In this document: piece by piece, positions 1 through 45,158 of the stretch
Layout of the letters: each line of letters opens with the position of its first letter
Position numbering within the stretch: position 1 is the stretch's first letter
Virus record (IMG/VR): IMGVR_UViG_3300030099_005478
Location: 1 to 45,158 of that record
Direction: 5' to 3' (one strand)
Source: a virus
DNA length: 45,158 bases
Notes under the pieces: generated by a model
The model's input: the letters and a program-made list of their open reading frames with translations, nothing else
The model's database searches: none
What the model was told of the DNA's origin: nothing
Program-made: the position numbers and the translations under genes

Positions 1-1448
1 TTAAAGTTTTAATGAAAACATATATGAATGGTGGTGGTAGTAGAGTAGAATTTGATTACTCAGATATCCGACCAAAAGGAGCAAGATTAATAACATCAGG
101 TGGTAAAGCACCAGGACCTCAACCACTAAAAGAATGTTTAGTTAAAATAGAAGGTCTATTAAATCAAAAAGAAAATGGAGAACAACTTACAACAATTGAA
201 GTACATGACATTGTATGTCATATCGCAGACGCAGTCTTGGCCGGTGGTATTCGTAGAGCAGCTCTTATTAGTTTGTTTAGTGCTGATGACGATGCAATGA
301 TTGGATGTAAATCAGGTAACTGGTGGGAATTAAATCCACAAAGAGGTAGAGCTAATAATTCGGCTTGTCTAATGAGACATAAAATAACTAAAGAATTTTT
401 TATGGACTTATGGAAACGTGTAGAACTTTCAGGAGCTGGAGAACCTGGAATATATTTAAACAATGATAAAGATTGGGGGACCAATCCTTGTTGTGAAATA
501 GCACTAAGACCAAATCAATTCTGTAATCTTTGTGAGGTAAATGTCTCAAATATAGAATCACAAGAAGATTTAAATGAAAGAGTTAAAGCAGCTGCATTTA
601 TCGGAACACTTCAAGCAGGATATACATCTTTTCACTACCTAAGAGAAATATGGCAAGAAACAACTGAAAAAGATGCTCTTATTGGTGTATCAATGACTGG
701 TATTGGTAGTGGTAAAGTACTAAAATATGACATGAAAAAAGCAGCAAGTTTAGTAAAAAGAGAAAATACTAGAGTATCTAAATTAATAGGTATAAACCAA
801 TCAGCTAGATGTACAACAGTTAAGCCTGCAGGAACAACATCATTAACATTAGGAACATCATCAGGTATCCATGCATGGCATAATGATTATTATATTAGAA
901 GAGTAAGGGTTGGTAAAAACGAAGCTATATATACTTATCTAAATATTAATCACCCAGAATTAGTTGAAGATGAATATTTTAGACCACATGATACAGCAGT
1001 TATTAGTATCCCACAAAAAGCACCAAAAGGTTCAATCTTAAGGACAGAATCACCTTTCGACTTACTAGAAAGAGTTAAAAAAGTTGCAACTGAATGGGTT
1101 CGTTCAGGTCATAGAAATGGTTCTAATTCACACAATGTGTCTGCTACAATCTCATTAAAAGAAAATGATTGGGATAAAGCCGGAGAATGGATGTGGGAAA
1201 ATAGAAAATCTTATAATGGTCTATCAGTATTACCTTATGATGGAGGAACATATACTCAAGCACCATTTGAAGATATTACTAAAGAAGAGTACGATAAAAT
1301 GATGGAATCACTTAAAGATGTTGATTTAAGTAAAGTAGTAGAATTAGATGATAATACAAATTTAACTGGTGAATTAGCTTGTGCTGGTGGTTCTTGTGAA
1401 ATAGATGTTGATTTAAAATCTATGGAAAAAGAATTAGATGAAGCATAA
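1..1448 (+). CDS. nrdJ: Class II (adenosylcobalamin-dependent) ribonucleotide reductase, NrdJ type, 3' part
   Basis: Reduces ribonucleotides to deoxyribonucleotides for phage DNA synthesis. The reading frame is open to the left edge (Lys-Val-Leu precede the first Met at 12), so the N-terminal part lies outside the window. Numbering from that Met, C160 of NPCCEIAL fits the thiyl-radical Cys with the usual Glu two residues on, and C171 lies 11 residues later, the spacing of C408/C419 in the Lactobacillus leichmannii enzyme. The C-terminal pair C457/C462 (CAGGSCEID) matches that enzyme's re-reducing C731/C736. The segment GGGSRVEFDYSDIRPKG also fits the monomeric B12-dependent family. About 478 visible residues plus some 260 missing would give the usual length near 740. 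Class is assigned from the Cys spacing; the missing N-terminus should hold the third active-site Cys. The stop overlaps the next gene by 11 bases. Confidence 0.9.
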   Translation, partial: KVLMKTYMNGGGSRVEFDYSDIRPKGARLITSGGKAPGPQPLKECLVKIEGLLNQKENGEQLTTIEVHDIVCHIADAVLAGGIRRAALISLFSADDDAMIGCKSGNWWELNPQRGRANNSACLMRHKITKEFFMDLWKRVELSGAGEPGIYLNNDKDWGTNPCCEIALRPNQFCNLCEVNVSNIESQEDLNERVKAAAFIGTLQAGYTSFHYLREIWQETTEKDALIGVSMTGIGSGKVLKYDMKKAASLVKRENTRVSKLIGINQSARCTTVKPAGTTSLTLGTSSGIHAWHNDYYIRRVRVGKNEAIYTYLNINHPELVEDEYFRPHDTAVISIPQKAPKGSILRTESPFDLLERVKKVATEWVRSGHRNGSNSHNVSATISLKENDWDKAGEWMWENRKSYNGLSVLPYDGGTYTQAPFEDITKEEYDKMMESLKDVDLSKVVELDDNTNLTGELACAGGSCEIDVDLKSMEKELDEA

Positions 1449-1623
1449 AGTTAGTAAAGAAATCTTATATCACTTTAAATGTGGTAAGTGTAATAAATGG
1501 TGGTCAGTTTCTGACTACCATTTATTGTCTTTAAACAACACAAAAGATTTAAATACTAATAAAAAAGTAACATGTCCTCACTGTGAACATAAAGAAAATA
1601 TAATAGATATAAAAGATGAATAG
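1438..1623 (+). CDS. Small zinc-ribbon protein
   Basis: A 61-residue protein with two CxxC knuckles, C15/C18 (CGKC) and C46/C49 (CPHC), which should bind one zinc ion as a zinc ribbon. The rest is polar with a short Trp-Trp segment after the first knuckle. It starts inside the end of the reductase gene (11-base overlap) and its own stop overlaps the start of the next gene by 8 bases, so the three are probably translated together. No family can be named. It could bind nucleic acid or be a small redox or adaptor protein; the sequence does not decide. Confidence 0.7.
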   Translation: MKHKVSKEILYHFKCGKCNKWWSVSDYHLLSLNNTKDLNTNKKVTCPHCEHKENIIDIKDE

Positions 1624-1822
1624 AAAAGACGATTGGATAGCTGAACTACATTATAGAGAATTTTTAAAACCTAAACTACAGGGTAAAGATTTTTATTGGG
1701 AAAATGGAATGATGGTAATGACAGAAGAGTATCATAAAAGACGTGGTAGTTGTTGTGGTAATGGATGTAAACACTGCCCCTATTGGCCACCCCACCAAAA
1801 AACAAATAGACAATTAAAATAA
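1616..1822 (+). CDS. DUF5522-like small Cys-rich protein
   Basis: A 68-residue protein with the sequence DFYWENGMMVMTEEYHKRRG leading into CCGNGCKHCPY (C46, C47, C51, C54). This layout of an aromatic-acidic lead, a Tyr-His pair and then CCGxGCxHCPY is what I recall for DUF5522, a short family of unknown function common in Bacteroidota. The four clustered Cys suggest metal or Fe-S binding, which is inference. It overlaps the zinc-ribbon gene by 8 bases and closes the reductase group. The family match is from memory and unsearched. Confidence 0.75.
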   Translation: MNRKDDWIAELHYREFLKPKLQGKDFYWENGMMVMTEEYHKRRGSCCGNGCKHCPYWPPHQKTNRQLK

Positions 1823-1831
1823 TCTTTGAAG

Positions 1832-1849
1832 TATTTATTATAAAAAAAG
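1832..1849 (+). promoter_or_regulatory. Candidate late promoter before the gp25-like gene
   Basis: TATTTATTATAAAAAAAG lies 19 bases before the ATG at 1851, in the 28-base gap that separates the reductase group from the baseplate genes. The same core (TATTTAT, 2-4 bases, TAAA) recurs before 4229, 18412, 30805 and, on the minus strand, 43105. The function is inferred only from recurrence and position. Confidence 0.4.
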
Positions 1850-1850
1850 A

Positions 1851-2318
1851 ATGCCAAATCAAAGATACGGAATAAAGTTTCCTTTTGAGAATAGTCCACA
1901 AGGATTTTTTTTAGGTTTAAATAAGAGTACAGAGGCAGAAGTTCGTTCTAATTTAATTCATCTTATTTTAACTTTAAAAGGTTCTCGTTATTTTTTACCT
2001 GATTTTGGCACTAATCTTTTAAAATATATTTATGAACCTTTAGATGGTGCAACTAAAACTAATATAGATAAAGAAATAAGAGATGCTGTAAAAAAATTTA
2101 TACCTGGTTTAATAATTAATGAAATCACGGTAAAATCAGCTGAAGATATTAGGGAAGAAGAGGAAAAAGAAAGTGAACCTAATGACCCTAGTTTGGTGGA
2201 CAATAGTTTTGGTTTTGTGGGGGATGCAGAAAGAGAATATACTCTTAGGGTTAGAATAGATTATAATAATGGTGATAATATATTCGCTACAAGAGATTTT
2301 GTAATAATTAATTTATAA
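1851..2318 (+). CDS. Baseplate wedge protein, GPW/gp25 family
   Basis: A 155-residue homologue of T4 gp25 and P2 gpW, a small wedge or sheath-initiating component of contractile tail baseplates. The diagnostic core is at residues 42-63, LKGSRYFLPDFGTNLLKYIY followed by EP, matching the family pattern of a Gly-x-Arg turn, a PDFG motif and a hydrophobic helix ending in EP. An acidic insertion at about 114-135 is longer than in small family members. The following gp6-like gene begins one base after its stop; these two are commonly adjacent in myoviruses. The start chosen follows the candidate promoter and has no Shine-Dalgarno sequence. Confidence 0.88.
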   Translation: MPNQRYGIKFPFENSPQGFFLGLNKSTEAEVRSNLIHLILTLKGSRYFLPDFGTNLLKYIYEPLDGATKTNIDKEIRDAVKKFIPGLIINEITVKSAEDIREEEEKESEPNDPSLVDNSFGFVGDAEREYTLRVRIDYNNGDNIFATRDFVIINL

Positions 2319-2319
2319 T

Positions 2320-4140
2320 ATGGCAGAGAAAAAAATATCATATACAGAAAGAGATTTTTTAGGTATAAGAAACGAACTCCTTAGAATAACAAATACGTAT
2401 TATCCTGATTTAATACAAAACGCAAATGACGCTTCCATATATTCCGTATTTTTAGATTTAAACGCAGCAGTAGCAGATAACCTAAATTTCCAAATAGACA
2501 GAACCTTCCAAGAAACAGTGTTACAATTCGCACAGGAAAGAAGTTCTTTATTTAATATAGCAAAAACATATGGGTTAAAAATACCAGGAAACCGACCATC
2601 TGTTACTGTTTGTGACATTTCTATAACAGTACCTGTTTTTGGTGATAAAGAAGATTTTAGGTATTTAGGTATGTTAAGAAGTGGTTCTCAGTTTAGAGGT
2701 GGTGGACAAGTTTTTGAATTAGTAGATGATTGTGATTTTTCATCACCATATAGTGTAGATGGAGTACCCAATAGAACTAAAATACCAAATTTTGATGCTA
2801 ATGGTATTTTAACTAATTATACCATAACCAAAAGAGAGGTTGTTGTTAATGGTGTCACAAGGATATTTAAAAAAGAAATAACTGACGTAGATAGTAAACC
2901 TTTCTTTCAGTTAGTTTTACCAGAAAAAAATGTGGTGGGTGTAACATCAGTAATACAAAAAGATGGTGTAGGGTATCAAACACTACCAACCAATGACGAG
3001 TTTCTAACTGTAAATGAACAGAGATGGTATGAACTAGATGCTCTAGCTGAAAGTGAAGTTTTTGTTGAAGACCCATCTGCTCCAGCTGATGAAGCTGGTG
3101 TAAAAGTAGGTAGATTTATGCATACAGATAATAGATTTATAACTGAATTTACACCTGAAGGGTTTTTCTTTTTGACTTTTGGTGGTGGAAACCAAACTTC
3201 ACAGGACTCTTTAGATGAATTTGCATCCAAGGGGGTAAAATTAAACATGGCTAGATTTTTAAATAACATATCTTTGGGTAATACAGTTAGAGGTAATACA
3301 ACATTATTTGTTCAGTATAGGGTAGGCGGTGGACAAACATCAAATGTGGGTGCAGGAAGTATAAACACTGTTGGTACAGTTAATTTTAATGTGGTAGGAC
3401 CTAGTCCACAGGTAAGCCAATCTGTAATTAATAGTTTAGCAGTTACTAATGTAACCGCAGCTATAGGTGGTGCCAATCCAATGACACAAGAAGAAATAAG
3501 AAATTATATTTCATTTAACTTTGCGGCACAAAATAGAGCTGTATCTATAAAAGATTATATATCTAAACTCAGAACAATGCCAGCTACTTTTGGTGCAGCT
3601 GCAAAAGTGGGTGTTACAGAAATAGAAAATAAAGTCAATATAAACGTACTATCTTTTACACCAGACGGTCAGTTAACCTCTAATATTTCTCAAACACTTA
3701 AAAATAATATTTCAAATTATTTATCAAATTTTAGGATGTTAAATGATTATGTAATTGTGGGTTCAGCTAAGGTAATAGATTTAGGTTTTGAAGTAGACCT
3801 ACTACTAGAAGCCTCCTTCAATCAAGGAGATATTGTAACTACAGTCATAACAACAATTAGTGAATATTTTGATGTTTCTAAAATGGAGATGGGGTTAGAT
3901 TTAAATATGGGTCAGTTAAAAGGTGATATTATGAGAGTTCCTGGTGTTTTAAATATAATAGATTTAAAAGTTTTTAATAAAGTAGGGGGTAACTATTCAC
4001 AAGCTATCACATCCCAACCGTATATTGATTTATCTACTAGACAAATAGGTTTGATTGATGATACTATATATGCAAAACCTGATGAAATATTGCAAATTAA
4101 ATTTCCTGAAAAAGACATCGCGATTAGGGTTAAGAAATAA
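2320..4140 (+). CDS. Baseplate wedge protein, gp6 / baseplate J-like
   Basis: A 606-residue protein. The N-terminal 90 residues have the family signature: an aromatic DF start (YTERDFLGIRNELL), Asn-Asp-Ala followed by a helix with DLNAAVADNLNFQIDRTFQE, then a run on ageing through a tyrosine-containing GLKIPGNRP turn. This matches T4 gp6 and the baseplate J family, which forms the ring of wedges around the tail tube. The middle (about 340-470) holds VGGGQTSNVGAG and a helical stretch with EEIRNYISFNF and KDYISKLRTMP, typical of the J-like core. Length is close to T4 gp6 (about 660). It is translated directly after the gp25-like gene and followed by an 88-base gap, suggesting the end of a transcription unit. 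Confidence 0.85.
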   Translation: MAEKKISYTERDFLGIRNELLRITNTYYPDLIQNANDASIYSVFLDLNAAVADNLNFQIDRTFQETVLQFAQERSSLFNIAKTYGLKIPGNRPSVTVCDISITVPVFGDKEDFRYLGMLRSGSQFRGGGQVFELVDDCDFSSPYSVDGVPNRTKIPNFDANGILTNYTITKREVVVNGVTRIFKKEITDVDSKPFFQLVLPEKNVVGVTSVIQKDGVGYQTLPTNDEFLTVNEQRWYELDALAESEVFVEDPSAPADEAGVKVGRFMHTDNRFITEFTPEGFFFLTFGGGNQTSQDSLDEFASKGVKLNMARFLNNISLGNTVRGNTTLFVQYRVGGGQTSNVGAGSINTVGTVNFNVVGPSPQVSQSVINSLAVTNVTAAIGGANPMTQEEIRNYISFNFAAQNRAVSIKDYISKLRTMPATFGAAAKVGVTEIENKVNINVLSFTPDGQLTSNISQTLKNNISNYLSNFRMLNDYVIVGSAKVIDLGFEVDLLLEASFNQGDIVTTVITTISEYFDVSKMEMGLDLNMGQLKGDIMRVPGVLNIIDLKVFNKVGGNYSQAITSQPYIDLSTRQIGLIDDTIYAKPDEILQIKFPEKDIAIRVKK

Positions 4141-4181
4141 AAAACTCACTTTTCACACATCTTTACATAAAATAGCTATGA

Positions 4182-4202
4182 GTTATCTTTAGTTTTGATA
4201 AC
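4182..4202 (+). other. Small inverted repeat in the 4141-4228 gap
   Basis: GTTATC and GATAAC flank a 9-base loop in the longest gap of the structural region. Six base pairs without a following T-run is a weak hairpin, so it is not called a terminator. The rest of the gap is AT-rich and contains the candidate promoter next to it. Confidence 0.25.
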
Positions 4203-4223
4203 ATAAATATTTATTTGTTAAAG
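4203..4223 (+). promoter_or_regulatory. Candidate late promoter before the 1172-residue protein
   Basis: The 12-base palindrome ATAAATATTTAT (4203-4214) runs into TTGTTAAAG. The shared core TATTTAT starts at 4208, 21 bases before the ATG at 4229. It is one of five similarly placed copies in the window. Because of the palindrome it could also be read on the other strand. Confidence 0.4.
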
Positions 4224-4228
4224 CCCAT

Positions 4229-9552: not shown

Positions 9553-10444
9553 AATACAAATACGAGCTTCACTTAATGATGATAAAGTTGTAATACCTAT
9601 AGGGCAAACTTTTGATGAAGCAGGTAGAGAACAATTAATAGAAACTTACGAACAATCTGAGTTACAAGATAATATAAATGAAATAATTGACTATGAAACA
9701 ACTAGATACTCTCATAGTGGGGTGGTACCAGTTACTAACCCTATAACACATGACTATAATTTATTTTACAATTTTTATTTTGCTGACTCCGGCACATTCC
9801 CAATACCAAACACTTTTGAGTTTCAAGGATTTACTCAAACAGAATTAAATAGGAAACCTAAATCATTTACTAATAGTTTTTTTAAGTTTGATTACTACGA
9901 TTCTCCAGAAAGAAAAAAACAAAAATTAATGTTTTCAGTTATTGTACCAGCGGGACAATGTTTTAGACAATCAGGAGTACCAATACCAATTACTGAATAC
10001 GAATATCAAGTACAGATATCGGAAGGGATAACGAACCCAACCTGGAGTATATACATACCTTCTATGACACTAGGACCTATAAATGATGGTGAAAATTTAT
10101 ATTCTGATGGGTATTATTTACAATGGCTTAAGACTAGAGAAATAATACCTAATGATACATTTTACATGCAATGTAAATTTTTTAATGCAAAAACCGGTAA
10201 AATAGTTAGAATGGTTAATAGAAATCCTATTGACCCACTTACCAATACATTATACACATTTTACGATTACCCAGATTGGTTTTTTTATGAAGTTAAATTA
10301 AAAATAAATTACTCTACAGAAAATCCAAAGTATAATTATACTATAAGGGAGTTTAATAATAATACATTGTTATCTGGTATACCTGGTGGACAAGCGGGTA
10401 CAGCAGGTAACCCAATAAACTTTTATGAATATGTTAACCCATAA
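9539..10444 (+). CDS. Structural protein, family unknown
   Basis: A 301-residue protein, mostly predicted beta from its alternating aromatic and polar residues, with few Cys. It begins within the preceding gene (14-base overlap, TGACTGTGAATAG region) and its stop shares one base with the start of the giant Cys-rich gene, so translation of the three is tightly linked. It ends in FYEYVNP; the giant neighbour ends in SDYLNP, a small similarity that may be chance. The position suggests a connector or base for the giant protein that follows, which is inference. Confidence 0.55.
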   Translation: MTVNRIQIRASLNDDKVVIPIGQTFDEAGREQLIETYEQSELQDNINEIIDYETTRYSHSGVVPVTNPITHDYNLFYNFYFADSGTFPIPNTFEFQGFTQTELNRKPKSFTNSFFKFDYYDSPERKKQKLMFSVIVPAGQCFRQSGVPIPITEYEYQVQISEGITNPTWSIYIPSMTLGPINDGENLYSDGYYLQWLKTREIIPNDTFYMQCKFFNAKTGKIVRMVNRNPIDPLTNTLYTFYDYPDWFFYEVKLKINYSTENPKYNYTIREFNNNTLLSGIPGGQAGTAGNPINFYEYVNP

Positions 10445-13400
10445 TGGAAAGACAAAAATTTAGAATAAAAAGAAAAAATGCAAGATTTTATGGTACAGCA
10501 ACCTGTAGTACTACTGGTACTACCGGATTGTGGCCTTTAAATTTTAGTGTACCATCTGTTAGTGGGGTAACTAACGCTTGTAGTGATATACCTATATATT
10601 CTTCATTAGGTGTTGAAGTTTTTAATGCATTGAATGGAGATATGACTACTTTTCCTGAAGATATAAGAAATTGTAGTATGAGTGAACCGTGTGTTATGTT
10701 ATGGAATACACCTTCACCTACTTTTATAAACCCAGCACAATGTAGAGACAACGATGGAAATGCTTGGGTAAAATTTGAGGGTATACAGTTTTGGAGTGCA
10801 GGAACACCAACATCAGGAACCTATAATGAAATTATGGATATATATGATATCTACAATGCCGACCCGACACTTAATTCAGTAGGACAACTTGGTGGTTTTT
10901 TTACACCTATACTTACCCCATGTTTTTGTGAAAATCCTTTAGAAGGGCAAGATTTAAGTCATGTAAAATTATTTATGAGTCAAGATTTTAATGATATAGG
11001 TCATTATACTGTATTTGATGGTAACATAAGTCAAAAAGATGTATTTTCAAATTTTTTATTTACATCCTTTACTAATTATGATGTTAGGGTTTTTAATACA
11101 ACTGATTTTAGTTACTATAAACATACACTACCTTCTAACTTTACAATAGATTGGGGTGATGGTAGTGCACCTAGTACCCTAATTTATCCAAATTTAAGTG
11201 ATATACACAGTTACCCCAACTTTCCACAAACTTATATGGTAACTATCACACAACAAACACCATGGGGACCTCAAAGTATTAGTAAATCACTTACAGTACC
11301 AAATTTAAATTATATGGATATGTTCGGTCAATCATTTGTACCAACCACTCCAGGTTCACCAGGTTTTGGTCAAGGTGGTTTACAACCAGCACAAAACCAA
11401 ACTATTATAACTGGACCTCCACTTTATAGTGTAAATGGTACTACTTTACAAGTCCAAACCAACGACCCAATTGCTAATATAGGTTCAGCTACTACCTACC
11501 ATACTTATTATGGTAGTGAAGGTAGTGATGATTATTTACCTTTAGATAGTGGTGTTAGTATACTCCAGTATAGTGGTATGAGTCCAACTCCTTGTTTTGA
11601 GGTATCTGGTATAACAGAAAGTAGTTTAGGTTCTTTCCAAACATATAGTACTACTAGTAATGACCCTAATTTAGGTCCTGGATATTTTATAAATATAATG
11701 ACCCCGGTAGGTGGTGATGTTGAAAATCCCTTAACTAATACATTAGAAAATCAGTTAGAAGGTATGATATTTTTAGCAAACACTAATGTTACAGGTTACA
11801 CAATACAATCTTCAACACCAGGTTCACTTAATACACCTATAGATTTTTATGATTTTGCTAATGGAATTACTATTTTTGTAGCTCAAAGCTGTGGTCCTGA
11901 TGCCAGAGTTTTTGGTGGAGAAGATTGTTATAAATGTCCAATAGAGAATTGTTTATATTGTGAAGAAAAAGATGAGTATATAGATAGGGTTACCTTTAAT
12001 CCTACATTGATACAATTTGACCCTATTGTTAATACTAATTATGCAGCACTAGGACAAGCATGGTCTCCAAATATAGATTACCTACCAGGAGATATAGTTT
12101 TTGATGTCACAGCAAATTTATGTTGTTGTTTTATGGTTGTTAAACCTATAAATCAATCTAATCCAGTAACTCAATCACCTTGGGCTTTCACACCACCCGC
12201 TATGACTGCTCAGGGTGTTTGGCAAAACCCTAATATTGGACAAGATGATGAACATATATATGAAGCATGTTGTTATTTTCCTGACTGTGATTGTGCACCT
12301 TGTCCTGATGGTACTCTAGTACCTTGTAATGATTTTACGTTACCAGCACAGTGGGGTGGACCAAACTCAACTAATGGTGGTGTTTATTTAAATGGTACAG
12401 TTTACAATACAGGACAGTTTATCGCTGATACTCATGGAAATTGTTACAAAGCTCTACAAACAGGAGTTTTGGGTTCACCAACAGGTATGAGTAGTACTTT
12501 AGAATGGGAATACACGGGTTGTATAAGTTGGATATGTCCAACAGACCCTCTTAATATTGGAATCTATGGATGTGAACCAATTTCAGGTAGTAGTACTAAT
12601 GTAATTAATAGTTATTTTCCAACACCAGGTATGGTTTTTGTTGGTAATACATTCTACCAAGATTGTTTAGATGATTTTAATAATGGTGTTTGTCCTTATC
12701 CTGAAAGATGGGTTTGTGATGACCAGTATAGTTGTAATAATTGTATACCTATATATCCAGGACAAGTTAGTCCTGGTGGTGTAGCATATAATGACCCATC
12801 CTATCCTTTTGGGCCTTTATTTTCTGCACAATCACAATGTGATGAGTGGTGTAATCCATCTTTATTTTCGTGTACAACACCAACCATCCCTTGTTGTGCC
12901 ACAATTAATTGTAGTACACAAGCTTTATATTTTTCTTTAACTAATATGATACCAAATGGTATGTCTGCTTTAGACGTACTCATCAATTATAGTTTATATC
13001 AAGCTCCAACATATACTTTAGCAGATTGTCAAAGTGGTTCATCTATTGAACCACCATGTTGTGTAGTTACTTATGATTGGGATTGTGAATCTGGGTGTAC
13101 CGCGGTTCCATTGGTTAATACGCCTTCTAATGCTTCAAGTATAAATCCTTCAGTACCAAACAACGTACCACAAACTTTACAATATTGTCAACTATTAAAT
13201 AATGGTGGTTTACCTGGTATACAACAAATACCTCCAGTAGCTTGTGGGTGGTCATGTACAACACCTTATGCTGTTTACAATCCGTACGACCCAGGACCAC
13301 CACCTTATGACCCTTATGGTTTAGGTTATTATTCTAGTCCTTGTACACCATGTTATACTATTGGATGTGCACCATTCCCGGATGAAATATCTTGCGTAAT

Positions 13401-30804: not shown

Positions 30805-33288
30805 ATGAGTTATATAATTAAAAACAGCACACAAGGTACTATTGCAGCTAGACTTACCGATGCTGGAAGAAAAAAATTATCCGAAGGTAAACTAAATATC
30901 GGTTTATTTCAATTGGGTGATAGTGAAATGTGTTATGATTGTTATAGCACCAGTCTACAGACTACAAATATGGTAAATGGGTTAAATATTTTACAAGCGG
31001 AACATAACGCACAAAATTTAACTCCTGTACCTGAAAAAAATAAAGGGCATATAAAATATGCTTTACCCGACCAAGGAACAACAGGTAGTACCTTTGGACC
31101 TACAATACCACAACATCAACATGTTGAGGTTTTTAATACTGCTGCAGCGAGAGGGTTTTTTAAAGTACCAACACAAACTACATCTCAAGCTAATACTGGA
31201 ACATATACATATTTTTCATCACAAACTACAGGACAATATGTTCTTTCCTCTAATTGGACCGCTTGTTTTACAGCTTTTACAGGCACCAATCAATTAAATA
31301 TATTTAGTGGGGGTAGTTGTACAGGTAGTCCACATCCTTATACACCACGTATTGGTGATTTAATATCTATTAGATATGAATACACATCAAATTATTGTTC
31401 ACAAATAAATTATAGTGCAGCTTCCCAAACACTATTTTATCAAGTAATTGGGGGTAATACTAATACATCACAAACTAGCACTAACATAACTTTAACCTTA
31501 GATAGAAATCTACCTAACTGGTTTGGAGCATCATCAAGTGGTATAGCACCTAGTATATACTCTGGATTTTCTGGAACTTGTGTTCATGTGGATGTTTATC
31601 CAGCTTTTTCAGCAAATCCTATGATAAACTCTAGTATATATAGTTCTGGTAGTACAATACAATATTGGTGTGATGATACTTTATCATTTAATGGTTGTTG
31701 TAATGTCTCAACAACAGACGCTAAAATATGGAATATGAATATAAACTGGACACACCAAGTTGCTGGTGTAAACAGTACAACATCTGGAGCTTTTGAAGGT
31801 GTTGAACATTACGGTTCTACAGGTTACTGTAGTAGTAAAGAATATTTTGGTTATGAAAGTGATAATGGACAAACATTTAGTGACCAATATATAGATTCTT
31901 ACCACCCTACAGTTCAGGGGGGTTCTTGGTACTACGATTCTTTTTATAATACTAGAGTTGTTTTACCTAGTGAACAAAAATGTATTGGTATTATACATTA
32001 TACAAATAATACCACTACAGATTTTTATGGTGAAAAATTTGCTATGAAAAGAAACAATTACAGTCCTACCTCAACAATAGGAGAGGCTAGAAATTTTAAA
32101 TTACATTTACCTTGGTTAATGTGGCACAAAAAACATCAAAATGGCTCCGGTAATGGTTCTGGTAATGGTGATGAAGGACTTTATGGTCAAACATTTTATG
32201 TTAATCCACCAACGAACAGTATTTTCCAAGAGGACCCACATTATATGTATTCAACACCCAACCTAAATATGAATGATTTAGGTTTAAGGTATTATCACTT
32301 ACAAGATGATAATATTGGTACTGGTACACAACCAAATGTAGTTGGTAAAGTTTATCCTGATTATAAAATGGTAGTTATTGATGATGAAGAATTACTAGCA
32401 GCTATGTCTTATAAATCAAATAGAAGTTACACTTTACCAGCTCCTAAAACAGAAAAAGTACCCGCAGGTACATCTTGTACACCAGTAGGACAACAACCAT
32501 GTGCTAATGGTGTGACCACATCGCCTGGTCAACTATGGATTACTTACATGTTTGCGAATAGTTCTGGTATGACTAGTGGGTTACATTGTAATTATTATGT
32601 ATATGAAGAATATGATGGGGTTGAACCACTTTTTGATGTAGGTATAACTCTAGGTCAAGAATTCCCATATTTAAGACCTTTCGCTACAACACCACCAACA
32701 ACAGACCCATTAGCTGGTACAGGTTGGGAGGCTGATAGATTATATATACTAACACAATTTGTGGCTAACGGAAGTGCATCTATGAATCCAGCACCTCAGT
32801 CATGGAATTACAAAGACGTTACTAGTTTAATACCAAATCATACTTCAGGAAATACAATTACTGCTGATAATTTAATTGGACATACTTTTTACTTAACAGC
32901 TAATGATTTTGATAATACTTGTCCTGGTTTTACAGCACAAACTTCCTATGTTTTAAATAATTTTATAACTGTTGCTCAAAAAACACAACCAGAAAGATTA
33001 CAATTTGGGGATGAATACTTTTTCTATGGAACAATGGAAACTGATATTATGGCAACAATTTATGAAATGAGACATGTTGTACAAATAGGAGCAAATCAGT
33101 ATACTAACTCAACCAATCCAACATGGATAGATTATACAACAACGGTAGGGTATGAAAATCCAAGACTAACAGAAATAGGTTTGTTTGATAATGAAAATGG
33201 TTTCCCTGATTTAATGGCTATTGCGAAATTTCAGTCACCAGTAGAAAGAACGGGGACTCAACAATTCGTAATAACTATTGATTTTTAA
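30805..33288 (+). CDS. Tail/fibre protein, first of three sharing an N-terminal domain
   Basis: An 827-residue protein. Its first 45 residues (MSYIIKNSTQGTIAARL then TDAGRKKLSEG and FQLGDSEMCYD) share the pattern of a ...LTDxGRxxL... FxLxDxxxDY domain with the next two proteins; it probably attaches them to the virion. Near 510-530 it has VGKVYPDYKMVVIDDEEL and the C-terminus reads LTEIGLFDNENGFPDLMAIA followed by a Thr/Ile strand. Both features recur in the 404-residue protein at 36443 and resemble phage tail-collar fibre proteins. The middle holds Cys-containing beta-type sequence and a short NGSGNGSGNGDEG linker. It likely forms a tail fibre or collar. Its stop overlaps the start of the next gene by one base. 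Confidence 0.65.
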   Translation: MSYIIKNSTQGTIAARLTDAGRKKLSEGKLNIGLFQLGDSEMCYDCYSTSLQTTNMVNGLNILQAEHNAQNLTPVPEKNKGHIKYALPDQGTTGSTFGPTIPQHQHVEVFNTAAARGFFKVPTQTTSQANTGTYTYFSSQTTGQYVLSSNWTACFTAFTGTNQLNIFSGGSCTGSPHPYTPRIGDLISIRYEYTSNYCSQINYSAASQTLFYQVIGGNTNTSQTSTNITLTLDRNLPNWFGASSSGIAPSIYSGFSGTCVHVDVYPAFSANPMINSSIYSSGSTIQYWCDDTLSFNGCCNVSTTDAKIWNMNINWTHQVAGVNSTTSGAFEGVEHYGSTGYCSSKEYFGYESDNGQTFSDQYIDSYHPTVQGGSWYYDSFYNTRVVLPSEQKCIGIIHYTNNTTTDFYGEKFAMKRNNYSPTSTIGEARNFKLHLPWLMWHKKHQNGSGNGSGNGDEGLYGQTFYVNPPTNSIFQEDPHYMYSTPNLNMNDLGLRYYHLQDDNIGTGTQPNVVGKVYPDYKMVVIDDEELLAAMSYKSNRSYTLPAPKTEKVPAGTSCTPVGQQPCANGVTTSPGQLWITYMFANSSGMTSGLHCNYYVYEEYDGVEPLFDVGITLGQEFPYLRPFATTPPTTDPLAGTGWEADRLYILTQFVANGSASMNPAPQSWNYKDVTSLIPNHTSGNTITADNLIGHTFYLTANDFDNTCPGFTAQTSYVLNNFITVAQKTQPERLQFGDEYFFYGTMETDIMATIYEMRHVVQIGANQYTNSTNPTWIDYTTTVGYENPRLTEIGLFDNENGFPDLMAIAKFQSPVERTGTQQFVITIDF

Positions 33289-34067
33289 TGGGATATTTAG
33301 ATATACACAATAAAGGACTATCAGGTAACACATGTAGAATTTATCTTTCTGATTATGGTAAATCCGTGTTGGCTAGTTGTAGTGGTTTAGTTGAAAAGAT
33401 AAGTAAATTTGGTCTCTCTGATAATGATATAGATTATAGAAGGTTTGTTGGTGAAGGTTCTTGTGTTGATGGTGACGAGGGTACTGGATTTACTTCCACA
33501 TGTTTTTTTGATTTACCTGACTCTAGGGGTGGTGAACCAATAGTATTTTCAGCTGATTATGGTACAAATGCTAGTGTTTCTATGGGTCCCGCATTTACAT
33601 TAGATAATAGTAGATTTACTTTTTATGAAACATCACTAGGTGTAACACCAATAAACTCTACTATGTGGATGAATTATTATACGCATAAAGTGGATGAAAT
33701 ACCAGAACCACAAAGTGGGTTACACGATAGTTGTTGGGTATTAGGAAATAATGTTGCAAATCTATTTCCTACATGTTGTTATACTTGTGCGGATTTTACC
33801 GGTAATGGTAATGTTAATATGGAAGATTTAAAATTTTTCTTAACACTATTAAATACCACTTCTGAAAGTATAAAAAGTACATTAGTGGGTGATTTTAACG
33901 GAGATGGTATAGTAGACCAAAAAGATTTAGAAATAATGATAAATTGTTTAAGACATAATGGTTTTGTTTTAGATGACCTTTGCCAAGATAAAGAGATATT
34001 TTGTTTAATGTGTGATAAGTTAGGTGAAAACTCTTTTTGTAATGGAGATTGTTTAACGTGTATTTAG
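33288..34067 (+). CDS. Dockerin-containing tail protein, second paralogue
   Basis: A 259-residue protein. Residues 1-51 (MGYLDIHNKGL, IYLSDYGKSVLAS, FGLSDNDIDYR) match the N-terminal domain of the proteins on either side. The C-terminal part has a type I dockerin-like pair of calcium loops: DFTGNGNVNMEDL (D169 to D180) and DFNGDGIVDQKDL (D202 to D213), each followed by a helix, with the usual spacing of some 33 residues. The Asp, Asn and Gly positions of both loops are intact. Dockerins bind cohesin domains in cellulosomes and some surface complexes; here one could join virion parts or grip a host surface protein. Cys pairs (CCYTC, FCLMC, CNGDCLTC) flank the dockerin. Role inferred. Confidence 0.7.
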   Translation: MGYLDIHNKGLSGNTCRIYLSDYGKSVLASCSGLVEKISKFGLSDNDIDYRRFVGEGSCVDGDEGTGFTSTCFFDLPDSRGGEPIVFSADYGTNASVSMGPAFTLDNSRFTFYETSLGVTPINSTMWMNYYTHKVDEIPEPQSGLHDSCWVLGNNVANLFPTCCYTCADFTGNGNVNMEDLKFFLTLLNTTSESIKSTLVGDFNGDGIVDQKDLEIMINCLRHNGFVLDDLCQDKEIFCLMCDKLGENSFCNGDCLTCI

Positions 34068-37657: not shown

Positions 37658-37667
37658 TATTTGTATT

Positions 37668-38261
37668 ATGAATAAAATTGGAAATAGCCCAAAAGTCTTG
37701 GGACTGGACATCTCAACTAAAACAATAGGGTGGGCACTATTTGACATACAAAAAAAAGAATTATTAGAATTAACACATTTTTCACCTAAAATCAAAGGAA
37801 AATATGAGAAGGTAGAAGAAATGTTATTAAAAACTGAACAATTCAAAAAGAAAATACTTGACTATAAAAATTTTGGTATAACAAAAGTTATAATAGAAGA
37901 ACCTCTTTTAAATTCTAATAATATTAGAACAGTATCTACTTTAATGAGGTATAACTCCTTTATAACCAGAGTAATTTACGAAACTCTAGGACTGGTACCA
38001 GAATTTATATCTACATACAACTCAAGAAAATACGCTTTTCCAGAATTATTTACTGAAAACAATAAAGGTAGAAAAGTTTTATTTGGTAAATATGATGTTG
38101 GGTGTGATAAGAAACATATAATATGGAAACATGTTTCTGATAGAGAACCACACTTAACGTGGACCTACACACGTAATAATACATTAAAAAAAGAAAATTA
38201 CGATATGGCAGATGCCTATACGTGTGTTAGAGGTTTAATGAAACAAAAAGAAATCTGGTAA
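37668..38261 (+). CDS. RuvC-like Holliday junction resolvase
   Basis: A 197-residue RNase H-fold nuclease. VLGLDISTKTIGWALFD (first Asp D14), KVIIEEPL (E77/E78) and YDMADAYTCV (D179, D182) supply the four acidic residues of the RuvC active site in the right order, and the length suits the family. It would cut four-way junctions formed during phage recombination and packaging. It is the first gene of the DNA-processing block and is followed by the primase after a 35-base gap. Confidence 0.8.
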   Translation: MNKIGNSPKVLGLDISTKTIGWALFDIQKKELLELTHFSPKIKGKYEKVEEMLLKTEQFKKKILDYKNFGITKVIIEEPLLNSNNIRTVSTLMRYNSFITRVIYETLGLVPEFISTYNSRKYAFPELFTENNKGRKVLFGKYDVGCDKKHIIWKHVSDREPHLTWTYTRNNTLKKENYDMADAYTCVRGLMKQKEIW

Positions 38262-38296: not shown

Positions 38297-39211
38297 ATGG
38301 AAGATTCCCCATTACTAATAGAATTATTACAAGATGTGTTAGGTGAAATAAATTCACACTACCCTAACAAGGGTCAAATATCTTTTGATTGCCCAGTATG
38401 TTCATACGACATTAAAGGTTTAGATACTGGGGATGGAAAAGGTAATTTTGAAGTAAACTACCATCAAGGGGTTTATAAATGTTGGGCTTGTTCAGAAACA
38501 TTTAACACACATGGTTCGTTAAATAAATTATTTTTAAAATGGGGAAATAAAAGAAATAAATCCACATGGGAACTAATAGGTGGTGATTTTATAAAAAAAT
38601 CAGAAAAAAAATATAAAAAAGTAAGACTACCTAAAGAATATATTTCATTTAATAAAGGAAATAAATTAACTATACCATATAAAGAAGCTTACAATTATCT
38701 AAGAAAGAGAAATATATCGGATAAAATAATCAATAAATACTCAATTGGTTACACAACGGAAGGTGAATATAGAGGTAGAATAATAGTACCTTCTTTTGAC
38801 TCTGAAGAAAACATTAATTATTTTGTGTCTAGGTCATATATTAATCACAAAAATAAATATAAAAATCCTGAGGCTGAAAAAGATAAAATAATATTTAACG
38901 AACATTTAATTAACTGGGATGAAGACATATATTTAGTAGAAGGTGTCTTTGACATGTTTTTTCTGGATAACTCAATACCTATTCTGGGAAAAAATTTAAG
39001 TGATAAACTTTGGAAAACTTTATATGATAAATGTAAAAAAAATATAATTATTTGTTTAGATGGGGATGCTTGGAAAGATGCTGAAAAATTATACAGAAAA
39101 TTAGAGGGTGGGAGACTCACTAATAGAGTAAGACTCATAAAATTACCTAAAGATAAAGATGTAAGTGATTTAGGTGGTATACAAGGACTTGAAAGAATTA
39201 AACTATTATGA
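38297..39211 (+). CDS. DnaG-type primase (zinc ribbon plus TOPRIM)
   Basis: A 304-residue protein. The N-terminal zinc ribbon has C32/C35 (CPVC) and C62/C65 (CWAC) with YHQGVYKCW between, like the DnaG and T7 gp4 primase fingers that read the template. A TOPRIM domain follows: YLVEGVFDMFF with Glu215 and Asp219, then ICLDGDAWKDA with D255/D257 as metal ligands. No helicase motif is present, so this is a stand-alone primase, shorter than bacterial DnaG, as in many phages. It overlaps the nuclease gene by 4 bases. TATTTAAT (38287-38294) directly before the ATG is repeated at the SbcC start. Confidence 0.82.
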   Translation: MEDSPLLIELLQDVLGEINSHYPNKGQISFDCPVCSYDIKGLDTGDGKGNFEVNYHQGVYKCWACSETFNTHGSLNKLFLKWGNKRNKSTWELIGGDFIKKSEKKYKKVRLPKEYISFNKGNKLTIPYKEAYNYLRKRNISDKIINKYSIGYTTEGEYRGRIIVPSFDSEENINYFVSRSYINHKNKYKNPEAEKDKIIFNEHLINWDEDIYLVEGVFDMFFLDNSIPILGKNLSDKLWKTLYDKCKKNIIICLDGDAWKDAEKLYRKLEGGRLTNRVRLIKLPKDKDVSDLGGIQGLERIKLL

Positions 39212-39981
39212 AAATTGTAAAAGAATTAGCGAAATTTAATAATATAAAATTTCATGATAAAGAACATAAATATTATTTAAACGGTAATAGAACCAAATCG
39301 GTAACTTCAGTAATAGGCAAATACAAACACCCATTCGATAAAGATTACTGGTCACAAAAAAAAGCTGATGAAAGAGGTATAACTAAAGAAGAGATAATTA
39401 AAGAGTGGAAATATAAAGCAGATTTTTCTTGTGAAAAAGGTTCGGCTTTCCATGAGTATGTAGAAAATTATTTAACAAACAAATTATTTCCATTTCCAGA
39501 ACATAGAATAACAGAAGCTTTGGGTAGTGAAGAAAATATGTTAGAATGTAAAGAAGTTGTAAAAAAACTTATAAAATTATTTGATAAATTTTATGATGAT
39601 TCTTTCGGTAGATTAATACCTGTTAGAGCTGAGGTAGTTGTTGGTGATGAGGAATGGGGTGTTACAGGTATGATTGACCAATTATTTTATAATGAAAAAT
39701 CACAAAAGTTAGAAATTTGGGATTGGAAAACTAATAAAGAGATTAAAAGAAAAAATAAATGGCAACAATTTAAAGAACCACTATCTCATTTAGATGTATG
39801 TGAACTAAATACTTACTCATTACAATTATCTTTTTATAAACTAATTGTTGAAAGAAACACAGAATTACTACTAGGGGATTCTTATATAGTTTGGTTCAAT
39901 GAAAATAATGAAAAATACGAAATAATAAAATGTTTTGATTTTAGAGAAGAAATATTAAAAATAATGGAAAATGAAAAATAA
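39208..39981 (+). CDS. PD-(D/E)XK nuclease, RecB/Cas4-like
   Basis: A 257-residue protein with the ordered signature of RecB-family nucleases: GSAFHEYVENYL (H82), RAEVVVGDEEWGVTGMIDQL (E142, D157), and EIWDWKTNK (D172, K174). The N-terminus (SVTSVIGKY) matches the start of many phage members. No Cys cluster is seen, so it lacks the Fe-S site of Cas4 proper. It probably resects DNA ends in recombination together with the SbcCD pair downstream. It starts within the primase stop (4-base overlap) and overlaps the ParB-like gene by 11 bases. Confidence 0.8.
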   Translation: MKIVKELAKFNNIKFHDKEHKYYLNGNRTKSVTSVIGKYKHPFDKDYWSQKKADERGITKEEIIKEWKYKADFSCEKGSAFHEYVENYLTNKLFPFPEHRITEALGSEENMLECKEVVKKLIKLFDKFYDDSFGRLIPVRAEVVVGDEEWGVTGMIDQLFYNEKSQKLEIWDWKTNKEIKRKNKWQQFKEPLSHLDVCELNTYSLQLSFYKLIVERNTELLLGDSYIVWFNENNEKYEIIKCFDFREEILKIMENEK

Positions 39982-40846
39982 AATTGTAAAATTAAAACTA
40001 AAAGAATTATACCCATCTATCGAATATAAACATGTAGCTGGTAAAAAACCTGGTTTTTCATGGCCAAAAATAAAACCTATAAATATTTTTTTTAAAGAAA
40101 AAATGGATAACTCGTCCACTCGTAGTAAAAAAGATAAAACTAAAGAAGTAGACATATATGAACACCCTCAATTTAAAGACATAACAAAAAGTATAGAAAA
40201 AACTGGATATGAACCACAAAAACACGGATACATGGATGTAGTATTTTTTAGGGGTGAAAAAAAATACAAAGTACTAGAAGGCAATCATCGTCTTGTTATA
40301 TTAAAAGAATTATACGATGAAAATTATGAAATAGAAGTTATGGTATCTGATTCTATGAAGGAAATTATAGATACCTACGTAAAAGATTTATATACTAAAT
40401 TTACATTTAAAAAAGTACTAAAATGGTTCTATGAAACCATATTAAAGGTACTTGACACACTAGCCACAATACCATTATTCTTTATCCCTTTAATATTTTA
40501 TGTTTTAGGGTGGCAAGTAGCTAATACTTTAATAGGTATATTTTTAATTATATTAGTGACTTTATTCCCTAAAGAAAATATTTTAATGAGGTGGGTTATT
40601 AAAAAAACAGAAAAAAACACCAAACTTAATCTTATTATTTTTAACATATTTAAAAATCTTAAATTTATTTGTTATATAGTTATAGCTCTTTGGTTATCTT
40701 ACAAATTTTTATTTGAAAGTTTTTATGTGTTTTTAATTGTAATATTGATAAGTTACTTTATAAAATTTACATTAGAAAAACTAACCGATGATGACCACGC
40801 AACACTAAAAACTGTTATAGAAAAATATAAATTAAAGAATAAATGA
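39971..40846 (+). CDS. ParB-like domain protein with C-terminal membrane helices
   Basis: A 291-residue protein. The N-terminal half has a partition/ParB-like (Srx fold) motif, YKVLEGNHRLVILKELY (99-115), with DIYEHPQFKDI before it; the EGNHR segment fits the GxxR-type nucleotide-binding motif of ParB/sulfiredoxin folds. The C-terminal half has about four hydrophobic helices near 164-180, 182-199, 232-246 and 250-266, separated by a basic loop (WVIKKTEKNTKLN). A ParB-like domain anchored to a membrane is unusual. It might place phage DNA or a nuclease at the host membrane, or act as a membrane-linked defence or exclusion factor. It overlaps the neighbours on both sides (11 and 4 bases), so it is part of the replication operon. 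Confidence 0.62.
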   Translation: MKNKIVKLKLKELYPSIEYKHVAGKKPGFSWPKIKPINIFFKEKMDNSSTRSKKDKTKEVDIYEHPQFKDITKSIEKTGYEPQKHGYMDVVFFRGEKKYKVLEGNHRLVILKELYDENYEIEVMVSDSMKEIIDTYVKDLYTKFTFKKVLKWFYETILKVLDTLATIPLFFIPLIFYVLGWQVANTLIGIFLIILVTLFPKENILMRWVIKKTEKNTKLNLIIFNIFKNLKFICYIVIALWLSYKFLFESFYVFLIVILISYFIKFTLEKLTDDDHATLKTVIEKYKLKNK

Positions 40847-41631
40847 AAGTGATAAAAAAAATAATACATTATTCTGATTTACATTTAAAACTTTACAAAC
40901 AACATGGAAGGGATAAAAAAGTATTGGAAAAAGCACTTATAGAGTGGAAAAAAATTAAACCGGATAGAATAGTTTTTACCGGGGATTTTGTACATTCTAA
41001 AAATCAAATGACACCAGAATTAATAAATTTAATGTCCTGGTGGTTCCAAGAAACAGCAAAAATATGTAAATGTGTTTACATAATTGGTAATCATGATTTT
41101 TTAGAAAATAATATGGATAGAATGGATGCACTTTCTCCAGTCTTAAATGGTTTGAACAACCCTAATATTGTATATCATAAAGAAATGGGTTGTTATGAAG
41201 ATGATAATATATTATGGTGTGTGTATTCTTTAACTAACCATAATATTAGACCTAACATACCAGAGGAAAGTGAAAAACTTAAAATAGGACTTTTTCATGG
41301 ACCTATTGAGGGTTCCTCTAATGATTTTGGTTTTGTTTTTGATGAAGGGTATAGCATAGACCGTTTTATTGGTTGTGACGTTGTATTTGCGGGTGATATA
41401 CATAAAAGACAAAGATTTAATATACCTGGTGGTGGAAAAATATATATGGTGGGTTCTATGATTATACAAAATTTTGGTGAAAGTATAAAAAATCACGGAT
41501 ACGGTGTTTATAATGTAGAAACCAATAAATATCGTTCACACAATCTTGAAAATTCACAACCTTATCTTAACTTTAAGATTACAGATATAGAAGACATAAA
41601 CAAAGAAAATGAAATTTTAATAAACAAATAA
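40843..41631 (+). CDS. sbcD: SbcD / T4 gp47-like metallophosphoesterase
   Basis: A 262-residue Mre11/SbcD-type nuclease subunit. All calcineurin-like motifs are visible: YSDLHL (D12, H14), FTGDFVHS (D48), IGNHD (N83, H84), LFHGP (H152), and AGDIHKR (D185, H187). It should work with the SbcC ATPase to trim DNA ends and hairpins; in T4 the pair is gp46/gp47. Shorter than bacterial SbcD, about 150 residues missing at the C-terminus relative to it, typical of phage versions. It overlaps the previous gene by 4 bases, but its partner gene is 1.5 kb away across a minus-strand gene. Confidence 0.85.
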   Translation: MKVIKKIIHYSDLHLKLYKQHGRDKKVLEKALIEWKKIKPDRIVFTGDFVHSKNQMTPELINLMSWWFQETAKICKCVYIIGNHDFLENNMDRMDALSPVLNGLNNPNIVYHKEMGCYEDDNILWCVYSLTNHNIRPNIPEESEKLKIGLFHGPIEGSSNDFGFVFDEGYSIDRFIGCDVVFAGDIHKRQRFNIPGGGKIYMVGSMIIQNFGESIKNHGYGVYNVETNKYRSHNLENSQPYLNFKITDIEDINKENEILINK

Positions 41632-41635
41632 AAAT

Positions 41636-42094: not shown

Positions 42095-42098
42095 AATT

Positions 42099-43105: not shown

Positions 43106-43115
43106 TTCATGTTGA

Positions 43116-43131
43116 TTTATACTAATAAATA
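43116..43131 (-). promoter_or_regulatory. Candidate late promoter on the minus strand, before the M23 peptidase
   Basis: Read on the minus strand this is TATTTATTAGTATAAA, beginning 26 bases before the GTG start at 43105. It is the only copy of the motif serving a minus-strand gene and so the strongest hint that the motif is functional. The 41-base divergent gap (43106-43146) holds this and TATTTAAT (43137-43144) before the SbcC start. Confidence 0.4.
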
Positions 43132-43146
43132 TACGATATTTAATAC

Positions 43147-45158
43147 ATGGAAATAGAAAAACTAGAGAATCCTTTTATTAAAGTTACTTGGGAAGACATC
43201 CCTGAAAATTTTACACAAGAAAAACTAAAAAGAGTTAGAAGTTATTTTCAAAACAAATACAACTCAAGAAACGTTACAGTTTTAACTAAAGCTGTAGACA
43301 GAAACACTGATAGTGAGTTAGATATAGATATTGAACAAAATGTTATGGATACTAACTATCAAAAAAATCTAATGACTCAATTTGTTGAAAGTAATGATAT
43401 GCAAGTAGATTTAAACCTTCTTAAAAGATTAGATGAAAAGGTTAATACTAAAATGTCAGAAGAAATGACAATAGATACTCACTACAAAAGAGTTTACGTA
43501 AAAAATATAAAATTTTCTAATTTTCTTTCATTTGGTGATAACAATAAATTAGATGTTAATTCTTTAGGGGGTATAACAGTCATTGACTCTAACCCACCTA
43601 ATTTTGGTGGTAAATCTGTATTAGCGGTGGACTTAATATTATTTTTATTTTTTAATACTACAACTAAAACTACAAAAGCAATAGAAATATTTAATAGATT
43701 TAGAGGCGTAAATGAGGTAGTAGTACAAGGAGAAGTTGAAATAGATGGTAGAGATTTTACTATCATTAGAAAAGTAAAAAGAAGAAAAACAAAAAGAGGG
43801 GATTGGTCAGTTAGTACAAGTCTAGAATTTTTAGAGAAAAAAGCAGATGGAAGTCTACAAAATTTTACCGGAGAACAAAGAAGAGAAACAGAAAATTTTA
43901 TAAAAGAATCAATCGGTACAATGAATGATTTTTTATTAACAGTATTAACCACAGCTTCTAACATAGAATCTATAATAGAATCTAAACCTACAGAAAGAGG
44001 TAACGTACTAAGTAGATTTGTGGGGCTAGAAGTTTTAAAAGAAAAAGAAAGTGTGGCTAAAAAAATGTACTCGGAATGGTCTAAGAAACTAATATCAAAT
44101 GTTTATAATGTTGAAGAATTAAAACAGGATATTAAAAATTTAAAAGAAAAAAACTTAATATTAGCTGAAGACAATCAAAAAAATAACAAAAATTTAAAAG
44201 AAACTAAAAATATTCTAGAATCCAAAAATGATTTAAGAGATAAATTAATAAGTAAAAAAATAACAGATATTGATAGTGAAATACAAAATGTTAATCCTAG
44301 ATTAGTAGAAGAAAAATTAAATGAAGAAAAAAATAATTTAATTTTATTAAGTAATAAATTAAAAATTTATGGTGAAAAAGAAATGCCTTTAGAAGTTGAT
44401 TTAAAGATTCTAAATTCAGAAATAGAAAAAAGAAATAAAATTAATATGAGTAAAGTAGAAAATAAAACTACTTTAAAAAACGTAGAAAAAAACTTAAAAA
44501 ATTTAATAGAATCAGAAGTTTGTCCTATGTGTAAACAAAATCTTAAAGATGTTGACCACACTGAAGAAATAAATAATTTAAAAATCCAAAGTAAAAAGTT
44601 ATTAGAAAATATTGAGTTAGAAGAAAAAAAATTAAAAGTTTTAGACACTAATATTGAAGATTTAAATAATAAAAAAATAGTTTTTGATGAATACGAAAAA
44701 GAAATACTAAAAAAAGAAAGATTAGTATTAGAGATAGCACAGAAAGACCTAACAATTAATAAAATAGAAAGTAAACTTAATAAATGGAAAGAAAACAAAG
44801 AAAAACTAGAAAATAATTCCAAAATAGAAAAAGAAATTTTAACTTTAAATTCTAGTATTGATAAACATACAAATCAAAAAGATAATTTAGTTAGAGATAT
44901 AGAATACAATAAAAACACTATAGAAACTAATAAAAATTTTATTATTGAAAAAACAAATAAAATAGAAAAAATAAATAAAGAAAATGATGTAGATAAAATA
45001 TTTCGTGCTTATCTAACGGTGTATGGTAAAAACGGTATAATTAAAACTATAATGAAAAGTATAGTCCCAAAATTAAATAATGAATTAATGAGACTTCTTT
45101 CTGATGTTACAGAATTTTGTGTTGAAATAAGAGTTAATGAAAAAAATGAAGTAGAGTT
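43147..45158 (+). CDS. sbcC: SbcC / T4 gp46-like ATPase, 5' part
   Basis: A Rad50/SbcC-type ATPase, open to the right edge (670 codons visible). The head domain begins only at residue about 116 (VYVKNIKFSNFLSFG), after an extra N-terminal 115 residues not found in the usual SbcC. The Walker A motif (150-157) reads PPNFGGKS, with Pro where the first Gly is normal. The Q-loop region reads LTTASNIESIIESKPTERG. A long coiled coil follows, interrupted by the zinc-hook CPMC (459-462), and a returning coil towards the second half of the head (GIIKTIMKSIVP near 630). It should pair with the SbcD-like protein in DNA end processing. Start is the first ATG of the open frame, directly after TATTTAAT. The C-terminal Walker B and signature lie beyond the window. 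Confidence 0.85.
   Translation, partial: MEIEKLENPFIKVTWEDIPENFTQEKLKRVRSYFQNKYNSRNVTVLTKAVDRNTDSELDIDIEQNVMDTNYQKNLMTQFVESNDMQVDLNLLKRLDEKVNTKMSEEMTIDTHYKRVYVKNIKFSNFLSFGDNNKLDVNSLGGITVIDSNPPNFGGKSVLAVDLILFLFFNTTTKTTKAIEIFNRFRGVNEVVVQGEVEIDGRDFTIIRKVKRRKTKRGDWSVSTSLEFLEKKADGSLQNFTGEQRRETENFIKESIGTMNDFLLTVLTTASNIESIIESKPTERGNVLSRFVGLEVLKEKESVAKKMYSEWSKKLISNVYNVEELKQDIKNLKEKNLILAEDNQKNNKNLKETKNILESKNDLRDKLISKKITDIDSEIQNVNPRLVEEKLNEEKNNLILLSNKLKIYGEKEMPLEVDLKILNSEIEKRNKINMSKVENKTTLKNVEKNLKNLIESEVCPMCKQNLKDVDHTEEINNLKIQSKKLLENIELEEKKLKVLDTNIEDLNNKKIVFDEYEKEILKKERLVLEIAQKDLTINKIESKLNKWKENKEKLENNSKIEKEILTLNSSIDKHTNQKDNLVRDIEYNKNTIETNKNFIIEKTNKIEKINKENDVDKIFRAYLTVYGKNGIIKTIMKSIVPKLNNELMRLLSDVTEFCVEIRVNEKNEVE

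Follow-up and report, generated by a model that had tools for sequence, protein, structure and literature searches.

A restriction site has been called eliminated from a phage genome when a palindromic Type II site has more than 15 expected occurrences and an observed-to-expected ratio below 0.1, and the study that applied this limit gives GATC ratios below 1 for each of the 46 phages with enzyme-encoding hosts (Rusinov et al. 2018, PMC6286503). Staphylococcus phages K and fRuSau02 are described as having no GATC open to host restriction endonucleases (PMC5618024), and phiX174 is likewise GATC-free where about 20 sites are expected (PMC5014478). Here we report that GATC is absent from a 45,158-nucleotide stretch of viral DNA, the entire IMG/VR record IMGVR_UViG_3300030099_005478 (hereafter, the window), and from many of its relatives. 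The window (positions 1..45158, no strand assigned) is part of the genome of a T4-like phage, from a lineage that includes jumbo-sized members and whose hosts are probably Bacteroidota. Its GATC absence is best read as being of a known kind, the extreme restriction-site elimination seen in phages K and phiX174, while the completeness, the genome size and the depth of the lineage are unusual. Phages K and fRuSau02 infect another host phylum and have smaller genomes than this lineage. phiX174 differs in having a genome of 5,386 bases and in that the link studied there was with mismatch repair (PMC5014478).

As in the published eliminations, the ratios here fall far under 0.1, with zero sites on 75–131 expected in the window and zero on 605–628 in its longest GATC-free relative (G011, 297,623 bp), our ratios being Markov-based and possibly different from theirs (PMC6286503). 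Unlike those cases, the zero extends to more than 600 expected sites in a single record and across whole clades. The moraphages provide a second point of comparison, being described as aquatic jumbo phages of 200–307 kbp with mostly predicted Bacteroidota hosts and with named genes that include gp6, PhoH, Clp ATPase, PolB, DnaK, DnaJ and glutamine synthetase (Perez-Hernandez et al. 2025, PMC12619734). G011 resembles them in gene content, matching Hsp70, DnaJ, glutamine synthetase, a T4-like portal, a prohead protease and PhoH, with PolB matched weakly. When the moraphage core genes were sought by Pfam and tblastn rather than with that paper's VOGs, G011 had gp6, PhoH, portal, S77 protease, a Clp-type AAA protein and weak PolB, and the window had gp6 and gp25. 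No moraphage record was among the named phages matched by the window searches, and the string GATC occurs 0 times in the main text of the moraphage paper (PMC12619734). A further parallel is Microcystis phage Mel-JY01 (W01, PP395634.1), described as a complete genome, which is a gp6 relative at 26.8% identity and also has no GATC in 190,001 bp. It differs in having a cyanobacterial host and in also lacking CTAG, GAATTC, GATATC, GGWCC and more. Literature searches covering few subscription journals listed no account of this lineage losing GATC.

The first-pass annotation of the window had claimed that GATC was missing throughout, and counting bore this out with 0 occurrences, a count that holds for both strands since GATC is palindromic. 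Its expectation of roughly 140 sites is reasonable as an independent-base figure (130.7), whereas values of 75–90 are fairer, given 75.2 under a dinucleotide Markov model and 90.1 under a maximal-order model. We also shuffled codons so as to keep the proteins and codon usage of all called open reading frames (ORFs) of at least 100 amino acids, which gave an expectation of 89.9 (standard deviation 6.3) and a minimum of 74 in 200 shuffles. The comparison of 4-mer counts with Markov and codon-preserving models that had been proposed thus sets 0 against 75–131, which is not near expectation, and the Poisson probability of zero is 2e-33 even at the lowest value (75.2). Other palindromic tetramers do occur in the window as claimed, including TCGA at both positions named (1057 and 7116), with counts of 3 for GCGC, 6 for CGCG, 14 for GGCC, 16 for TCGA, 32 for CCGG, 139 for CTAG and 202 for GTAC. 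GCGC had 10 expected occurrences, numbers too small to judge depletion.

The absence of GATC is carried by synonymous codon choice, and more strongly than had been noticed by eye. Asp was encoded by GAC at 69 of 69 positions preceding a codon that starts with C, against 105 of 676 elsewhere. Similarly, the avoidance of TCN for Ser after AGA extended to all codons ending in GA, with TCN at 0 of 18 such positions and 644 of 1006 others. The third frame behaved alike, with Ile encoded by ATC at 0 of 63 positions following G and 46 of 817 elsewhere. Summed over 14 GATC-free records, omitting one (G010) that duplicates part of G011, the corresponding counts were 2,226 of 2,226 for GAC before C, 0 of 532 for TCN after a codon ending in GA and 0 of 3,961 for ATC after G. 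The absence is complete in all three codon frames. Records that carry GATC had a weaker codon contrast, with nearly none in W02 (GAC fraction 0.27 vs 0.25). Two GATC-bearing records, G034 and G038, still had a strong contrast for GAC before C (0.73 and 0.77 vs 0.22), a pattern that could either be a relic of earlier avoidance or reflect partial avoidance at present.

To place the window among its relatives we used its gp6-like baseplate wedge protein (2320..4140, + strand; phrog_219 and phrog_6), hereafter gp6. Two scans of viral contigs supplied the best 80 of 370 and the best 80 of at least 595 confirmed stretches, to which the stretches of three named phages were added. The resulting tree had 164 rows (the window, 160 viral contigs and the three named phages; none dropped) representing 121 different proteins, and was rooted at its midpoint for drawing only. 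Ninety of the 164 rows had zero GATC, 7 had less than 0.3 of expectation, 32 were at 0.3–0.75 and 35 were higher. The window belonged to a marked set of 15 rows that were all GATC-free. A branch of 60 rows had no GATC-free member, while another of 82 rows had 70, with its GATC-bearing rows scattered within. The zero label required 9 changes on the tree, at least 4 of them forced by the marked branches, compared with 50.8 when labels were shuffled, and near-copies contribute to this clustering. Short loci are frequent (down to 4.2 kb, with expectations of about 9), and single zeros in them weigh less. Four sets of identical gp6 proteins spanned more than one GATC class, one of them joining a locus with 0 of 39 expected sites (L176) to one with 1 of 16 (L175).

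Whole records extended the result well beyond the window. In G011, codon shuffling gave an expectation of 620.8 (z = −37.1). Fifteen GATC-free records totaling 1,567,602 bp had 0 of about 3,486 sites expected under the dinucleotide model, or 3,363 without G010; these records are not independent, as some are 80–88% alike over tens of kb. Zero GATC was common to relatives only about 57–60% identical in gp6. Branches outside the zero class carried GATC at about 0.05–1.4 of expectation, and Flavobacterium phage immuto had 510 sites against 471 expected. We considered whether GATC-bearing records might be mosaics of empty and normal segments. However, depletion was mostly uniform in 2-kb bins, with variance-to-mean ratios of 0.51–1.20 in 10 of 11 such records and 2.20 in the remaining one (G065). 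Two partly depleted loci had clustered sites, five of six within 122–710 in L182 and all five within 7089–8300 in L214, which suggests recently acquired DNA or a chimeric contig.

GATC is not the only word these phages lack. We called a 4-mer strongly depleted when its maximal-order expectation was 15 or more and its count fell under 0.25 of that value, and applied this to 26 records. Although only 16 of the 256 4-mers are palindromes, 38 of the strongly depleted entries were palindromic (15 being GATC itself) and 3 were non-palindromic. The accompanying words were branch-specific, with CATG depleted in G053 (0 of 222), G054 (0 of 187) and G049, TCGA (8 of 126) and ACGT in G051, and GATATC, GTTAAC, ATGCAT, CATG and ACGT in the GATC-bearing G037. 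Mel-JY01 was depleted in CTAG (0 of 156), GAATTC (0 of 95), GATATC (0 of 61), GGACC plus GGTCC (that is, GGWCC; 0 of 109), CTGCAG and GCCGGC. Palindrome sets that differ by branch are what several host enzymes would leave, and such branch-specific depletion is the mark of Type II restriction. Separately, GCGC was nearly eliminated in G011 (3 of about 81 expected) and was also low in G007, G008, G002, G010, G017, G049, G053 and G054.

The explanation that we consider quite likely is that restriction nucleases encountered in the host range target GATC, and that many members of the lineage have been purged of every copy for this reason. Of the readings weighed, selection against a GATC-specific defense, as the first-pass annotation had proposed, is the best supported, given absence in all frames, its spread across clades, branch-specific palindrome depletion and genes of GATC-nuclease families in the probable host class. 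To look for such genes, we surveyed 295 genomes from the class of G073, a metagenome-assembled genome (MAG) labeled Saprospira grandis. The three family searches are taken as covering the same 295 genomes, as their parameters and listed handles agree. The DpnII family gave matches over the cut-off in 9 genomes, MutH/Sau3AI in 10 and DpnI (PF06044) in 6. At least one family was thus found in 24 of 295 genomes, one of them with two kinds, and 18 had matches at E < 1e-25. All five strong DpnII matches adjoined an ORF with a DPPY motif, four of these beginning with KWAGGKTQLI, and three had a second DPPY ORF. Four of six MutH-family matches that we fetched adjoined an ORF with C5-methylase motifs. 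Phage proteins found some of the same loci by tblastn, with a C5 protein of Mel-JY01 matching five of the six MutH-family loci (E 1e-9 to 1e-17) and a phage D12 methylase matching one DpnII locus (L393, E 1e-12). For sea-ice bacterial contigs, GATC is described as among the most prevalent restriction-modification motifs by homology (PMC12570018).

The threat may be a cutter of unmethylated GATC, of the DpnII or Sau3AI type, or a cutter of methylated GATC, of the DpnI type. Adenine methylation blocks enzymes of the DpnII/MboI kind but not Sau3AI, and it is required by DpnI. The first two kinds would cut at GATC any phage DNA that arrives in a cell unmodified, and DpnI-type enzymes in other cells would cut GATC-methylated DNA. 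Were all three kinds acting, no single methylation would protect a phage genome, while removing the site would. Elimination as the sole universal escape could explain why no GATC at all is left, when most other palindromes have only become scarcer. In branches no longer under the threat, GATC would return by neutral mutation.

Several observations weigh against restriction in the host range as the cause. GATC-nuclease families were uncommon in the surveyed genomes of the class (about 8%), which sits uneasily with total absence in divergent phages, unless the host range is wide or the enzymes are commoner in the true hosts. Weak matches made up 4 of the 9 DpnII and 3 of the 10 MutH matches over the cut-off, and the matches in G206, G208 and G243 contained internal stops. 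None of three Bacteroidota-labeled MAGs near one G011 gene had a DpnII match, and no known Polaribacter restriction enzyme is described as recognizing GATC (PMC12570018). The absence of GATC from a Microcystis phage as well makes one shared host enzyme unlikely. Non-palindromic words were also depleted, with 36 five-letter and 10 six-letter entries, many of them coming from Mel-JY01 and G059 and some (such as GGACC/GGTCC) being halves of degenerate palindromes, compared with 12 six-letter palindromes. Finally, we infer both host and enzyme. A GDP-mannose dehydratase of G011 (not a gene of the window) was tried as a host marker and rejected as weak, its best two matches being Saprospira-type MAGs (71–72%), its third Phycisphaerae (65%) and the rest spread over many phyla. 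Among 26 loci, no tRNA genes were found that might serve as a host clue.

An alternative that we judge improbable is that the absence is self-imposed, with the phages encoding a GATC-specific nuclease, from a family not yet described, that destroys the DNA of the host and to which their own empty genomes are immune. Branches that lost the gene would then have regained GATC. Such a constant internal cause would give the pattern of a zero that is clade-wide and deep while other avoided words shift by branch. Mel-JY01 has proteins of nuclease type, one PD-(D/E)XK (PF12705) and one SegE-type GIY-YIG, G011 has two matches to the ResIII helicase family, and the window has an exonuclease-like gene. 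Moreover, 49 sea-ice viral contigs are described as coding for a restriction enzyme (PMC12570018). However, 48 phage records, mostly fragments, had no MutH-family match (PF02976) over the cut-off and no DpnII-family match (PF04556), the DpnI family not having been searched there; W03 had a single sub-threshold MutH match (E 0.02). For G011 (189 of 306 called ORFs scanned) and Mel-JY01 (155 of 249), Pfam placed no DpnII, DpnI or MutH family among the 25 of 34–45 families listed per batch. The joint loss of many palindromes in Mel-JY01 is better explained by several host enzymes, and the widest protein cluster without a GATC-bearing member, among the best-ranked clusters, covered only 6 of the 15 GATC-free records. 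The same contrast of gene content between these 15 records and 11 GATC-bearing ones yielded no decisive gene, but most contigs are fragments that cover different genome parts, which leaves a phage-encoded cause some probability.

A D12 methylase fared no better as the determinant. The search for a Dam-like methylase that the first-pass annotation had suggested found none (PF02086) in the window, and neither the window nor G011 has a D12 (Dam-type) methylase. Across the 48 records, D12 methylases were present in G017 and G050, which are GATC-free, in G065, which is partly depleted (43 of 89 expected), and in the distant W03, and we rejected this gene as a GATC switch on that distribution. For the G017 copy, the single solved match was to the DpnII methylase (E 0.0057), and this copy was below the Dam subfamily cut-off. 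PADLOC, run on three batches of G011 proteins, listed no restriction nuclease among its families (the best 25 of 70 in the second batch), and gave helicase-type and DruA-like matches. The second batch contained a DruA-like protein, a Druantia component, and an SNF2/ZorD-like helicase. Among 87 Mel-JY01 proteins scanned there were four PF01555 matches and one PF00145 match to methylase families, despite the many missing words. S-adenosylmethionine synthetase is encoded in G011 (63346–64497) and Mel-JY01 (78787–79989), and the 11 GATC-bearing records compared contribute nothing to the cluster that these two proteins belong to.

Selection to escape methyl-directed mismatch repair or Dam-dependent regulation, an idea put forward for phiX174, is a very unlikely cause here. 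Restoring the expected number of sites to phiX174 is described as cutting its mutation rate eightfold (PMC5014478). The mismatch-repair route requires both Dam and MutH. The seven strong MutH-family matches of the class survey lay in open frames of 441–514 amino acids, five of the seven with two matched stretches. This length, along with the C5-methylase-like neighbors of four of the six fetched loci, presumably fits Sau3AI-type restriction better than MutH. Mismatch repair also leaves unexplained the loss of CTAG, CATG, GCGC and GAATTC in GATC-free relatives.

Still less credible is a loss by mutation rather than selection, such as GATC methylation followed by deamination. Some words one letter from GATC were raised in the window, with CATC at 2.04, GACC at 1.40 and GATG at 1.39 of expectation. 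Yet GATT, the deamination product, was at only 1.17 in the window and 0.90–1.14 in three other GATC-free records, and CATC (1.29–1.41) and GATG (1.28–1.52) were also raised in two GATC-bearing records. A purely mutational process would be expected to spare a few sites, and none remained in 1.57 Mb. An assembly or sampling artifact is next to impossible even though every sequence apart from the named phages is a contig from a database, and often a short one, since Mel-JY01 is free of GATC over a genome described as complete and contigs of the same collection elsewhere carry GATC at normal rates.

The window includes several very large ORFs, and all features described here lie on the + strand. 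A ribonucleotide reductase (12..1448; phrog_367, E 7.7e-99) opens it, with a 5' end that is probably cut, as its frame is open to the window edge. It is followed by a baseplate wedge subunit (1851..2318; phrog_261 and phrog_43) of the gp25 type, and then by gp6. Between the baseplate genes and a replication block lies a cysteine-rich protein of 2,440 amino acids (10444–17766). A 259-amino-acid protein (33288–34067) contains two stretches, DFTGNGNVNMEDL and DFNGDGIVDQKDL, that by eye resemble dockerin/calcium-binding repeats. Further on are a RuvC-like Holliday junction resolvase (37668..38261; phrog_159, E 5.4e-9), a DNA primase (38297..39211; phrog_47, E 3.4e-40), the exonuclease-like protein (39208..39981; phrog_298, E 1.4e-23) and an SbcD-like nuclease subunit (40843..41631; phrog_100, E 7.5e-26). 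The last ORF (43147..45156), open and cut at the window end, is probably an SbcC-like ATPase, judging from its position behind the SbcD-like gene and from a start that by eye resembles that of a G011 protein.

Taken as restriction-driven, this lineage is an extreme and clean case of elimination, in which a record of about 300 kb lacks every one of some 600 expected sites while neighboring branches carry GATC. It opens the questions of how quickly avoidance fades and of whether phage sequence by itself can reveal the targets of defense where hosts are unidentified. If methyl-blocked and methyl-dependent GATC nucleases both act in the host range, elimination of the site would be the one universal escape, an idea that can be tested.

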